Assembly: GCA_022511425.1 (NCBI GenBank)
Contig: JAFLRO010000001.1
Coordinates: 33,571-97,570, forward strand
From: Acetatifactor sp.
GTDB taxonomy: Bacteria; Bacillota; Clostridia; Lachnospirales; Lachnospiraceae
Direction of reading: 5' to 3'
Length of the DNA stretch: 64,000 nucleotides
Under the pieces are notes generated by a model, which saw only the letters and a program-made list of their open reading frames with translations, had not been told where the DNA came from and made no database searches. The first letter of the stretch is position 1; every line of letters begins with the position of its first letter. Shown here piece after piece: positions 3,966 to 43,347 of the stretch. Position numbers and translations under genes: made by a program.

Positions 3966-6272
3966 ATGGAAATTTCAAAAAAAGTGGAACTTTTGGCTCC
4001 TGCGGGCAATCTTCAGGCCTTTTACGGAGCTGTCAACGCTGGAGCGAATGCTGTTTATTTGGGCGGTTCAAAATTTGGAGCCAGAGCTTATGCGGAAAAC
4101 TTAACAGAGGAAGAACTTGTGGCCTGTATCCGATATGGCCGCCTTTTTGGAGTGAAAGTATATCTGACAGTGAATACACTACTGAAGGAGCAGGAAATTC
4201 AAGACCTGCCCGGATATCTTGAACCTTTTTACCGGGCAGGACTGGCTGGAGTCATTGTACAGGATATAGGAGCGCTCACAATAATCCGAGAATCTTTTCC
4301 TTGTTTAGAGCTCCATGCCAGCACCCAGATGACTCTGTGTGCAAGCTACGGTCCTGAGCTTTTAAAAACAATGGGTGTCAATCGGATTGTACCGGCCAGG
4401 GAATTGAGTTTACAGGAACTGATTGACATAAAGCGCCGAACGGGTATGGAACTGGAGACATTTATTCACGGGGCAATGTGCTATTGTTACTCCGGTCAGT
4501 GCCTTTTCAGCAGCATTTTGGGCGGCCGAAGCGGCAACCGGGGAAGATGTGCCCAGCCCTGTCGTCTGCCGTACATAGTGAACAGCAGAAAGAAAGGAGC
4601 TCAGTGTTATCCATTAAGCCTGAAGGATATGTGTACCATTGATTGTATTCCGGATCTGATTGAGGCAGGGATAGACTCATTTAAAATTGAAGGAAGGATG
4701 AAAAAGCCTGAGTACGCTGCAGGCGTCACTGCGATTTACCGGAAATACATAGATTTGTACTATGAACTCAGGCAGAATTTAGGAGCTGAGAAAGCCGCAG
4801 AAATCTATCAGGTAGTTCCGGAAGACAGGAAAGCCTTGAAAACACTGTATGTAAGAAGTCAGCTTCAGGACGGCTATTATTTTAGACGAAACGGCCGGGA
4901 GATGATAACTCTTGCAAATCCTGCCTACAGTGAAACGAAAGATGAATTGCTGGAAAAGATCAACGGAGAGTATTTACAGAATCGGCGGCGACTGGCTGTG
5001 AAAGTAGAGGCTGAATTTCTCGTCGGAAAGCCTGCATCGGTTTCACTTAGCTGCAAAGAAACAGTGGGAAAAGCCACGGGGGAACTGGTACAACCGTCTA
5101 GAAATCAGCCTGTGACAGAGGAAGATTTGCGTCGTCAGCTCGGAAAGCTGGGAGACACTCCATTTGAGGCCTCCGAAATGCAGATATTGTTAGAGGAAAA
5201 TGCTTTTTATCCTCTGAAACAAATGAACGAACTGCGAAGAAAATCTGCGGAAGCACTTGAACAGGAACTAATAAAAGCAAGAGAGTGTAAAAAATCTGAG
5301 GTACAGCAGAAAATATGGTCTGCAAGCAATCGACCTGCTCAGTCAATAAAATGCATTAAAAATAGACCGATTCAGTCAACCGCCTATTCAATATCCGTTG
5401 CTGCCATGGAACAGCTGAGGGTTCTGGCAGAATTTCAGACAGATAAGAAAAGTGAGCAGAAACTTGCTCTTCAGCATGTCTACGTGAACAGCGATTTGCT
5501 GATTGAAAGATATAACGAGTGCCTGGCTCTTATGAAACAGATCAATACAGCAGGAGCAGATGTAACGGCAGAAAAAAATGTAACGTCAGGAACAGAATTA
5601 CTTGCAGCCCTGCCATATGTTATGAGGCAGTCAGATTTGGCTTACATGGAAAAAATCTGGTCATTGGCAGAGAAGGGTGAAATAGACGGATTTTTAGTTC
5701 GATCTTTGGATGAATTAGGATTTCTTCTTAATAGGGAGCAGAAAAGCAAAAAAGGGGTAAAGATACGGACTGATGCTGGTGTTTATATTTGGAATCTGTC
5801 TACAGCCCAAAGCCTTTCAGTGCTAACAGACGGTTTTTGTATTCCCTATGAGTTGAATGCCCATGAACAGCGCAAACTCATTGAAAATTCCTCATCAGAG
5901 GACGGACATTTTTTATCATGGGAGAAAATCATTTATGGCAGGATTCCCATGATGATTACTGCAAATTGTGTGCAAAAGACTACGGATATATGCATTAAGG
6001 ACGGACAGGGCGTTTTATGGATGAAAGACCGCTATCAGACGGACTTTCCCGTGCTTCGTAACTGTGCCCACTGTGTCAATATCATATACAACAGCGTTCC
6101 CCTGGCGCTATTTGGGGAACAGAACCGTGTCAACGGGATTGATGTCCTGCGGCTGGATTTTACCATAGAGACTGAACAGGAGGTTGTTCAGGTCTTGAGG
6201 GCATGTATGGATGGTCTCAGCCTGAAACGGGGCACTTACACTACAGGACATGAGAAGCGCGGTGTGGATTAG
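3966..6272 (+). CDS. U32 family peptidase
   Basis: KKVELLAPAGNLQAFYGAVNAGANAVYLGG...FIHGAMCYCYSGQCLFSSILGGRSGNRGRCAQPCRLPY; start re-assigned from the longer ORF. Confidence 0.93.
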   Translation: MEISKKVELLAPAGNLQAFYGAVNAGANAVYLGGSKFGARAYAENLTEEELVACIRYGRLFGVKVYLTVNTLLKEQEIQDLPGYLEPFYRAGLAGVIVQDIGALTIIRESFPCLELHASTQMTLCASYGPELLKTMGVNRIVPARELSLQELIDIKRRTGMELETFIHGAMCYCYSGQCLFSSILGGRSGNRGRCAQPCRLPYIVNSRKKGAQCYPLSLKDMCTIDCIPDLIEAGIDSFKIEGRMKKPEYAAGVTAIYRKYIDLYYELRQNLGAEKAAEIYQVVPEDRKALKTLYVRSQLQDGYYFRRNGREMITLANPAYSETKDELLEKINGEYLQNRRRLAVKVEAEFLVGKPASVSLSCKETVGKATGELVQPSRNQPVTEEDLRRQLGKLGDTPFEASEMQILLEENAFYPLKQMNELRRKSAEALEQELIKARECKKSEVQQKIWSASNRPAQSIKCIKNRPIQSTAYSISVAAMEQLRVLAEFQTDKKSEQKLALQHVYVNSDLLIERYNECLALMKQINTAGADVTAEKNVTSGTELLAALPYVMRQSDLAYMEKIWSLAEKGEIDGFLVRSLDELGFLLNREQKSKKGVKIRTDAGVYIWNLSTAQSLSVLTDGFCIPYELNAHEQRKLIENSSSEDGHFLSWEKIIYGRIPMMITANCVQKTTDICIKDGQGVLWMKDRYQTDFPVLRNCAHCVNIIYNSVPLALFGEQNRVNGIDVLRLDFTIETEQEVVQVLRACMDGLSLKRGTYTTGHEKRGVD

Positions 6273-39619: not shown

Positions 39620-39654
39620 AAAAAGAAGTTGTCGGTATACGGCAACTTCTTTTT
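39620..39654 (+). terminator. Intrinsic terminator after hisIE
   Basis: AAAAAGAAGTTGTCG-gtata-CGGCAACTTCTTTTT, 15-bp stem including one G-U pair. Confidence 0.8.
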
Positions 39655-39768
39655 AGTACGACTTGCGTCTAATATATTATCATATCTAAAAATAAAAGTC
39701 TAGTATTATTTTTTGTTTTTTATATACTTATATTTGTCACTCATAAACACCTCAGAAAGGAGAATCAC

Positions 39769-42700
39769 ATGAGAAAAGAACACATTCAGGGAACCTCCCG
39801 TCTGGATGAGGAGAAGCACCTGGAGGAGACACTTGCCGTAATCCGTGACAACATGGAGGAATACGGCCGCCAGGTCGGGAAAATGCAGGCCGACATCGAT
39901 GAGATGTTGGAGCATTACCACGACAATGACGTAGAAGTGTACACGATCCTGAGCAACACCATCACCATGCACGATCACATGAAGCGTGCGCTTTTGAGGA
40001 ATGAAAAGGCCTCGGACAAGCCCTATTTTGGCAGAATCGTCTTTCACGATCATGCTACAGACCGGGAAGAATCCCTCTACATCGGACGGGGCGGTATTTC
40101 CCGTGACACAACCCATCAACAAGTAGTGGATTGGCGTGCACCGGTGGCAACCGCCTATTATGAGAACGGGCTGGGAGAATGCTCGTACTCCGCACCGGAC
40201 GGAGAACCTGTGGAAATTGATCTAAAACTGAAACGCACCTACGAAATTGTAAAGGGACAACTGCAGGATTATTTTGACAGCGAAGTGATTTCTAACGACG
40301 AGCTGCTCACAAAGTATCTGGCGAGAAACAAACAGGCCGTTCTGGGTGAGATTGTTGCCACCATACAGAAGGAGCAGAATGAGATCATCCGCCGCTCCCC
40401 TTACCACAACACCATAGTCCAGGGAGTGGCAGGCTCCGGTAAGACCACTGTTGCAATGCACAGAATATCCTTCATTCTTTACAACTATGCAGAACGATTC
40501 CGGCCGGAGGATTTCTATATTGTGGGAAGTAACAGGATTCTATTGAACTACATCACCGGAGTACTGCCAGATCTGGACGTGTACGGAGTGCGACAGATGA
40601 CCATGGAGCAGTTGTTCGTCCGTCTGCTCTATGAGGACTGGGATGACAAGAAATATCGCATTAAAATGGGGATTTCGGCTTCTGACCGCGGGGATTCTGT
40701 CTCAGGAAACGGCGGAACGGTCTATGGTCGGAGTGAGCGGAAAGGAACCGCCGACTGGTTTAGGGAACTGCAAAAATTCTGTGATGACCTGGAGCGCGCA
40801 TCCATCTCCACAGAATCCATCTACCTGAATCCGAAACAGTTCGTTGAAGGTATCCAGGACGGAAAGAATGGAGTTTACGACAGAAGTACCGGAAAAGATG
40901 CGTTGATTCAGCTTGTGGACGGTGAGGCGGTGGAAAGGTATATTTCACAGAATCCCACGATATCTATCCAAAGCAAGATCAACATGCTAAACGATCGGCT
41001 GATGATAAAAATACATGATGAATTCCTGGGAAAAGGAATCAAATATACGGAAGAGGAGAGAAAGGCCATTTTGAAGGCCTATCGAAACAGATACGGAAGT
41101 AAGGTCTGGAAGCAGTCAACCTATGAGCTGTATCGGGAATTTCTTTTGAAACAGACAGAGACTGGGATAGAAATTACTCTGCCCGATAAGGAATTCGACG
41201 TATATGACTTGGCTGCCCTTGCTTACATCTACAAGCGTACTAAAGAAACGGAGGTAATAAGCGAGGCACACCATATTGTCATTGACGAGGCACAGGACTT
41301 CGGAATGATGATTTATCATTGCCTGCATGCCTGCATTAATGGCTGTACCTACACGGTTATGGGTGATGTCTCTCAGAACATACATTTCGGAGTAGGACTG
41401 AATGACTGGGAACCTCTCAGAAATCTGATTCTTACAGATCCAATGGATCATTTCGACACTTTGAAAAAGAGCTACCGGAACACGGTGGAAATTTCCAACT
41501 TTGCCACAGAAATCCTCCACCACGGAAGGTTTTTCCATTATCCTGTGGAGCCCATTATCCGCCATGGAAAAGAAGTTCAGGTAGAACAGATTAACGAAAA
41601 TACGTTTTATAAAAGAAGCGCTGAAATATGTCGTGACTGGCAGGAGAGAGGCCTTATGACGATAGCCTTGGTATGCAGGAATGCAAAGCAGGCGGAAATT
41701 GCAGCAAAAGCCCTTTCTCCCATGATCGACATTATGGAAACAGATTTGGAAAAAGCTGAATTTGGCAACGGTATCATGGTACTTCCGGTGGAATACACAA
41801 AAGGTTTGGAATTTGATGCAGTGCTGGTTCTTGACCCCACCAAGGAAGAGTATCCGGTTGATGACGGTCATGCAAAGCTACTCTATGTGGCTGCTACCAG
41901 GGCCCTGCATGAGCTCTGCATCCTTCACAGGGGAAATCTTACCGGACTGATTGCCGATCCTGTGCCTAAGGAAGATGGAGAAAGAAGCATTGATGAGCCC
42001 ACGGTTTCAGAAACTTCATCGGGCGAAGAGAGTACAATATCTGCAAAAAACACCTCCGCCATTGCTGACGTAGCTGCGCCCGTCAGCGTCACCGCCACAG
42101 TTCCAGTGCCAAAGCAACGCCCAGTTCCAGCGCCAAAACAACGCCCGAGAGCCACAATAGTTCTCAAGTCCAATCCCACGCCTGAGACACCGGCTCACGT
42201 AAAGCCCATGACCTCATATGCCGCTCACCCCGTGCAGCCCATACCCGGTTCTGCCGGGAAACCAAAAGCAAGCACATCCTCAGACCTTCCGAAGTTCGGA
42301 GCAGAAGTGCCTTCAGAAAAACTTCGGCTCTCGGGCCATACCAAGATTGACCTGTCCGTCCGCTGGATCACAAAGAACCCCGACGGACTTTACCTGCATA
42401 GTCGTTATGGCATTTTGCGCCTGAGCCCAATAAACAGCAATATCATCCGCATTACCTTTGCCAAGGGCGGCAGCCTTGCAAAGGTGCGCCATCCTTTGAT
42501 TGCAGTGGACAGACTGGAGCGCTTCTGGACTTACAAAGACGCCGGAGGAGTAGTGGAACTGGCAACAGACGAACTGTTGCTCAGAGCCGAAAAAACTTCC
42601 GGAAGCTTAAGTTTTTATAACCGCGACAAAAAACTTCTTCTGACGGAGCGCGACAGAGAGTGCCGACAGATAGAATACATCTCTCAGGAAACGACAAGAT

Positions 42701-43011
42701 GCTGGATTATCCTGAATACTGCAAAAAAGGAACAGCTCTTCGCATTGGAGAATACAGGTACGGAACCCATCTCTCTAAACGGCGTTGCACGGTATATCAA
42801 CGTTTCATGGAATGACAGTCTCCCTTTCCTGTTTTCCGACAGGGGCTGGGGGCTGCTGATTCCCACAGACGGGACTGTCATTTGCAATCCGGCCTCCCAG
42901 GGTACATGTCTCTGCGTGGAAGGCCAGGAGCAAATGGATATGTACTTTATCGCAGGTAACGATGTCGGGACAATGAAAAACGCTTGTAAATTCTTATATG
43001 GAAGGCTGTGA
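39769..43011 (+). CDS. HelD-like UvrD/Rep superfamily helicase with C-terminal GH31 N-domain-like extension
   Basis: HelD-like N terminus YIGRGGI...VVDWRAPVATAYY, Walker A VQGVAGSGKTTVAMHR, HIVIDEAQDFG, LLYVAATRALHELCI; Pro-rich linker; C-terminal about 225 aa beta-rich domain ending MDMYFIAGNDVGTMKNACKFLYGRL. Confidence 0.9.
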   Translation: MRKEHIQGTSRLDEEKHLEETLAVIRDNMEEYGRQVGKMQADIDEMLEHYHDNDVEVYTILSNTITMHDHMKRALLRNEKASDKPYFGRIVFHDHATDREESLYIGRGGISRDTTHQQVVDWRAPVATAYYENGLGECSYSAPDGEPVEIDLKLKRTYEIVKGQLQDYFDSEVISNDELLTKYLARNKQAVLGEIVATIQKEQNEIIRRSPYHNTIVQGVAGSGKTTVAMHRISFILYNYAERFRPEDFYIVGSNRILLNYITGVLPDLDVYGVRQMTMEQLFVRLLYEDWDDKKYRIKMGISASDRGDSVSGNGGTVYGRSERKGTADWFRELQKFCDDLERASISTESIYLNPKQFVEGIQDGKNGVYDRSTGKDALIQLVDGEAVERYISQNPTISIQSKINMLNDRLMIKIHDEFLGKGIKYTEEERKAILKAYRNRYGSKVWKQSTYELYREFLLKQTETGIEITLPDKEFDVYDLAALAYIYKRTKETEVISEAHHIVIDEAQDFGMMIYHCLHACINGCTYTVMGDVSQNIHFGVGLNDWEPLRNLILTDPMDHFDTLKKSYRNTVEISNFATEILHHGRFFHYPVEPIIRHGKEVQVEQINENTFYKRSAEICRDWQERGLMTIALVCRNAKQAEIAAKALSPMIDIMETDLEKAEFGNGIMVLPVEYTKGLEFDAVLVLDPTKEEYPVDDGHAKLLYVAATRALHELCILHRGNLTGLIADPVPKEDGERSIDEPTVSETSSGEESTISAKNTSAIADVAAPVSVTATVPVPKQRPVPAPKQRPRATIVLKSNPTPETPAHVKPMTSYAAHPVQPIPGSAGKPKASTSSDLPKFGAEVPSEKLRLSGHTKIDLSVRWITKNPDGLYLHSRYGILRLSPINSNIIRITFAKGGSLAKVRHPLIAVDRLERFWTYKDAGGVVELATDELLLRAEKTSGSLSFYNRDKKLLLTERDRECRQIEYISQETTRCWIILNTAKKEQLFALENTGTEPISLNGVARYINVSWNDSLPFLFSDRGWGLLIPTDGTVICNPASQGTCLCVEGQEQMDMYFIAGNDVGTMKNACKFLYGRL

Positions 43012-43347
43012 GACATCCGTTGCCCATGTCTCTATCACCTCTTCAAAGTCGGCCGAGATTGCCTGGAAGATTCTTTCAGCGGTGATCCCGGCCACACTTA
43101 TGCCGTTTACATCCATGAAAATCACAAATCCCAAAAGTCCCGCCGCCAGAGCCAGACGCACACGGAAAAATGCGGGATTCTCCGGCACCGTGCCTTCCTC
43201 CTGCGGTGTTTCCAGCCCCTCCACAGGCCGACTGCTTCTTCCGTAAAGGATTTTCTCCCGGTTGGACATATCATACTGATTCTCATTATACCTGGAGCGT
43301 ATCTGTTTCAACAGTTGCAATCTTTTCTCCGTACTAGCATCACTCAT
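42994..43347 (-). CDS. Hypothetical single-TM protein
   Basis: 117 aa with charged N terminus and one TM (VRLALAAGLLGFVIFMDVNGI); overlaps the 3' end of the HelD-like gene by 18 nt. Confidence 0.6.
   Translation of the reverse strand: MSDASTEKRLQLLKQIRSRYNENQYDMSNREKILYGRSSRPVEGLETPQEEGTVPENPAFFRVRLALAAGLLGFVIFMDVNGISVAGITAERIFQAISADFEEVIETWATDVSQPSI

Follow-up and report, generated by a model that had tools for sequence, protein, structure and literature searches.

The window analysed here, a stretch of 64,000 nucleotides from Acetatifactor sp., carries a gene in which a HelD-type motor is joined through a linker to a relative of the N-terminal beta-sandwich domain of GH31 glycosidases. HelD clears stalled RNA polymerase (RNAP) from DNA. 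The fusion is a real and conserved architecture, of single origin, in one branch of the Lachnospiraceae. No report of HelD joined to a glycoside hydrolase or galactose-mutarotase domain was found in the open-access papers searched.

The fused gene and its motor

The features of the locus are as follows.

39620..39654, + strand: perfect inverted repeat with a T-run, terminator-like, located 3' of hisIE and closing the his operon (read directly; the loop is longer than the scanner permits)
39756..39762, + strand: Shine-Dalgarno sequence AAAGGAG, with the ATG 6 nt downstream (read directly)
39769..43011, + strand: fused gene, 1080 aa, composed of HelD-type motor, linker and GH31 N-domain-like tail (uninterrupted ORF with the expected motifs)
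39769..40332, + strand: secondary-channel-arm region (long antiparallel helices with an acidic tip) and Gre-like globular part, residues 1 to ~188 (AF2 model, alignment with B. subtilis HelD and its published domain limits)
40420..40449, + strand: Walker A, QGVAGSGKTT, residues 218-227 (invariant in the family)
41278..41298, + strand: Walker B / motif II, VIDEAQD, residues 504-510 (family alignment)
41884..41907, + strand: motif VI, YVAATRAL, residues 706-713, closing the 2A head (Pfam and family alignment)
41971..42285, + strand: linker rich in Pro, Ala, Ser and Thr, predicted to be disordered, residues ~735-839 (full-length model, pLDDT ~30 at residues 736-838)
42295..42351, + strand: conserved motif FG..P....L...GH..ID, residues 843-861, absent from GH31 enzymes (alignment)
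42364..43008, + strand: GH31 N-terminal beta-sandwich-like domain with no barrel, residues 866-1080 (hhalign, AF2, Foldseek, and PF13802 in relatives)

As the preliminary description stated, the gene is one uninterrupted ORF with HelD/UvrD motifs. Since a terminator-like repeat follows the his operon, the fused gene is probably its own transcription unit. A 117-aa ORF encoding a probable membrane protein (42994-43347, − strand) converges on it, the two 3' ends overlapping by 18 nt; members of this ORF's family are neighbours of helD in about 16 of about 99 loci. No conserved operon partner emerged from these loci, the commonest neighbour family adjoining 19 of about 99. In locus L011 an alpha-galactosidase-like ORF (from position 4536) lies directly 3' of the clade-B fused helD, an arrangement conserved nowhere else.

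Residues 1-734 constitute the motor and are matched by the Pfam UvrD/AAA_19 models and by NCBIfam HelD models. Compared with B. subtilis HelD (BsHelD; 6wvk), the motor gives an E-value of 1.7e-65 as a single sequence and 5e-92 as a profile, aligning from residue 50 onward. Walker A, Walker B (DEAQD) and motif VI are all intact and invariant in the family. The full-length AF2 model has helices at residues 11-48 and 55-81, within the region assigned to the secondary-channel arm using the BsHelD domain limits (PMC7749167), and an arm is inserted in domain 1A, not 1B, as a helical insertion of about 220 aa. These elements—secondary-channel arm, split 1A with clamp-arm insertion, 2A head, Walker A and B, and motif VI—are common to class I HelD of B. 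subtilis, with which the motor is alignable throughout. On the grounds of sequence the motor is of the HelD-type SF1 class of RNAP-recycling motors and is predicted to work as HelD does, with ATP-dependent RNAP binding and release of nucleic acid; it is not to be named a BsHelD equivalent, however, since it scores 322.4 bits with the NCBIfam equivalog model NF041464 (HelD_BACSU), under the curated cut-off of 419. Motors of this group are acidic, with a median net charge of about −18.

HelD proteins reach into RNAP with two arms, through the secondary and the main channel respectively, and release nucleic acid (PMC7749167, PMC7749165). A survey of the family describes proteins of ~680-850 aa, with size differences in the arms and no mention of a C-terminal domain (PMC8655204). 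BsHelD, with 774 aa, ends after the 2A head, whereas in the fused protein this head is followed by a linker of 100 aa and a GH31-type domain of 215 aa.

The linker and the tail

A Pro/Ser/Ala-rich linker had been recognised in the preliminary description at about 41970-42330; its presence stands, and its limits are corrected to those listed above. Linkers of the relatives are usually basic (median pI 10), and the window's own is neutral. Owing to a shallow alignment, the full-length AF2 model is of low quality (pTM 0.43), and it gives the tail no position on the motor. According to the modelling, the tail is an independent domain, predicted to hang from the 2A head by a flexible tether of about 100 aa that is mostly basic in the clade. 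The GH31-like part extends from residue 866 onward; it is preceded by residues 843-861, which form the conserved motif foreign to GH31 enzymes.

The window's tail alone has no Pfam or NCBIfam match in a single-sequence search, and its best PDB match, BoGH31A, is weak (E 0.21) and not significant, so that relatives are needed to show the GH31 homology. A profile that includes 15 same-genus relatives matches BoGH31A (E 1e-11), a Xanthomonas alpha-xylosidase (1e-10) and further GH31 enzymes. The tail of locus L003 scores 30.3 bits with PF13802, against a gathering score of 27, and 51 of 77 tails match this model at E<=0.01. In an hhalign comparison of the tails with N-domains taken from complete GH31 enzymes of this genus, the match had a probability of 99.9 and an E-value of 1.5e-33 over 215 columns, and it stops at the YRxLTGK segment that immediately precedes the barrel. 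AF2 predicts the tail to be a confident beta-sandwich (pLDDT 92.5, pTM 0.91), and the best 50 Foldseek matches listed for this model are all GH31. The catalytic (beta/alpha)8 barrel (PF01055) is absent from the 1080-aa protein and present in the GH31 relatives.

Judged by these alignments and models, it is beyond doubt that the tail is homologous along its full length to the GH31 N-domain and ends where the barrel would start; it is a relative of that domain, not a GH31 enzyme. The preliminary description had proposed just this—a HelD-like motor joined to a GH31 N-domain that lacks the barrel, with the stop at the barrel's border—and had named a structural match and an AlphaFold model as checks, both of which came out in its favour. 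A second tail subclade (L008-L015) lacks the last helix (~20 aa) of the window's tail, and this helix is therefore not needed for retention of the domain.

Relative to the alpha-xylosidase-like GH31 enzymes of the Lachnospirales (~800 aa; BoGH31A, 5jou, is the closest solved structure), the tail has the whole N-terminal beta-sandwich and the same barrel border, but it lacks the barrel and the C-domains. Its structural core is kept (R894, LLxE, P1019, S1023, GY, G1045 and D1057). On the pocket side, the GLGQxEEG and HQAN loop residues conserved in GH31 relatives are mostly lost and their TADGxK hairpin is deleted. New invariants have appeared in the tails—G856-H857 and D861, of the GH..ID motif preceding the domain, together with K986, R966 and, in nearly all, C1039. 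The charge is also reversed: all 31 tails of 31 are basic (pI 8.3-9.8), whereas GH31 N-domains are acidic (median pI 5.5), with acidic-to-basic switches at R865, K899, K923, K955, R963, K986 and R1008. This contrast is one evolutionary event, all tails being one clade, and a statistical test of it overstates independence.

Having neither barrel nor pocket residues, the tail cannot hydrolyse sugar and is unlikely to bind it; these losses, and the change from acidic to basic charge, disfavour the carbohydrate-binding role raised in the preliminary description. A tail that senses a carbohydrate or sugar metabolite, coupling RNAP recycling to sugar supply, would suit its ancestry among sugar-handling, alpha-xylosidase-like enzymes, and a GH31 N-domain is able to contact sugar at subsite +1 (PMC9061262). 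We consider such a sensor improbable nonetheless, as the substrate-side loop residues and hairpin are gone, the GH31 sugar pocket lies mostly in the missing barrel, and the charge is reversed.

Distribution and descent of the fusion

Of 138 species sampled in the genus, 68 have the tail at E<=1e-40, and nearly all of these carry it in an open frame 1006-1277 aa long; the same search also picks up complete GH31 enzymes (~790-870 aa), which match less strongly and group apart. Across the family, 25 of 333 sampled genera have the fusion, and none was seen outside the Lachnospiraceae in samples of the order and the phylum (~400 genomes each), nor in viral contigs. Strong tail matches beyond the family are GH31-length frames of 784-825 aa and, once, a broken frame of 364 aa. 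The best 80 relatives in a species-representative genome collection are all tailed, one being truncated by a contig end. Many of the sampled genomes are MAGs, and the carriers include isolates and the complete chromosome of CE91-St56; among them are Acetatifactor muris DSM 23669, Eisenbergiella tayi DSM 26961, E. porci and Parablautia intestinalis.

A frameshift or an assembly error joining two genes, which the preliminary description named as a way in which the fusion could fail, is ruled out by recurrence across dozens of genomes and in isolates. Apparent standalone tail genes in three genomes are accounted for by contig ends (L136 and L137) and by a frame break in the linker (L135). In the last of these (genome G301, at ~4419-4528), two overlapping frames encode the motor (750 aa) and the tail (323 aa) separately; sequencing error, mutation and frameshifting are all possible.

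In the motor tree the tailed motors form one clade (FastTree 0.99; IQ-TREE SH-aLRT 99), and a HelD form without the tail, found in this genus too, is their sister. A tail shared by all HelD homologues, another way in which the preliminary description could have failed, is likewise ruled out, the tail being absent from sister and paralogous HelDs. The state of the tail on the HelD tree is explained by two changes, a single gain and a single loss. Locus L173 (genome G135) shows the loss: its motor, 66% identical, is cut off within the linker, with EKPARRR before the stop, and the flanking convergent gene follows; L173 is thus a natural tail deletion with its downstream flank preserved.

The tail-less sister form (L016-L021, ~690-730 aa) has ~43% identity to the tailed form in the motor and ends after the 2A head. 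It is present in 30 of the 138 species and never shares a genome with the tailed form in the genus (Fisher p 4e-11, kinship ignored), so that the two look like alternatives for one job. More distant tail-less HelD paralogues (~715-812 aa; L144-L149) occur in several tailed genomes, where two HelD types coexist.

The tails, too, form one clade (0.82), which adjoins the subfamily of ~800-aa GH31 enzymes and stands apart from the ~700-aa GH31s (0.994); this position shows the donor to have been of the ~800-aa kind, whose closest solved relative is an alpha-xylosidase. Distances between tails correlate with those between motors (r 0.86), indicating that the two have been co-inherited. Among 49 close pairs, the median dN/dS from a simple counting method is 0.10 for the motor, 0.51 for the linker and 0.15 for the tail, and the tail is under purifying selection.

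These results bear on whether the tail does anything at all. The natural deletion in L173 and the frame break in the linker of L135 are what one might expect of a neutral remnant without function, or of an assembly error. Such an explanation is extremely unlikely in view of the tail's dN/dS, the open frames of mostly 1006-1277 aa in 68 species, the presence of the fusion in isolates and a complete chromosome, and the high-confidence fold.

Role of the tail

Conserved, basic, folding independently and held on a flexible tether, the tail is most naturally taken as a module that binds nucleic acid or surfaces of RNAP or HelD, the latter being in line with the protein-binding option of the preliminary description; the choice between these putative partners is one that we infer. 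We tentatively favour, at somewhat under an even chance, the reading in which a GH31 N-domain was captured once and exapted as a basic, tethered module binding nucleic acid or RNAP. By this account the HelD motor of an ancestral member of the Lachnospiraceae gained, in a single event, the beta-sandwich that forms the N-terminus of an alpha-xylosidase-like GH31 enzyme, and this domain would then have been exapted as a non-catalytic binding module. The basic face of the tail would most likely grip the DNA or RNA that is being removed from RNAP, or else an acidic surface on RNAP itself, and the tail may raise the motor's affinity for stalled complexes or its residence on them. Some observations weigh against this basic binding module: basic charge alone is no proof of nucleic-acid binding, L173 has deleted the tail and kept the motor, so that the tail is not indispensable everywhere, the loci offer no conserved operon partner, and the full-length model leaves the tail unplaced.

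Such gripping might be of use where HelD's helper is missing. In Bacillus the acidic RNAP delta subunit assists HelD and the two act together (PMC8655204, PMC7749165). Delta was not detected in this genome or in 20 relatives, in a search whose B. subtilis control was positive, and most Clostridia are without it (PMC8655204). Binding of the tail to delta was dismissed, delta not having been found. That the charge-reversed glycosidase domain, without its catalytic half, serves as a third HelD prong that grips nucleic acid or RNAP and replaces delta's help is a bolder proposal, and we regard it as rather unlikely. Other relatives without delta have tail-less HelDs, which counts against the basic binding module. 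A stricter version, in which the tail substitutes for delta as an accessory factor helping HelD to open the clamp and strip nucleic acid, would follow from the undetected delta and from the cooperation of delta with HelD in Bacillus, but is very improbable: most Clostridia lack delta and yet lack the tail, delta's active tail is acidic and the HelD tail basic, and the same genus has tail-less sister HelDs.

The tail could alternatively be a domain for protein-protein docking or oligomerisation, contacting RNAP, HelD itself or another partner, with no direct role in nucleic-acid binding and with its basic charge serving an acidic protein face. In known enzymes GH31 N-domains take part in oligomer contacts (PMC9061262), a basic tail could plausibly dock onto its own acidic motor or mediate dimerisation, and RNAP-delta-HelD dimers occur in Bacillus (PMC7749165). 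The lack of a conserved neighbour gene as partner and of a docked position in the full-length model tells against docking, which we take to be a serious possibility, if not a probable one.

Whichever partner the putative binding module has, HelD has in this clade gained an entire domain derived from an enzyme, whereas in the published survey its size varies only in the arms (PMC8655204). It is a clean case of a glycosidase domain moved from carbohydrate metabolism to the transcription machinery. With tailed motors, tail-less sisters and one natural deletion, a single genus constitutes a natural experiment, and how HelD works without delta becomes directly testable in gut anaerobes.
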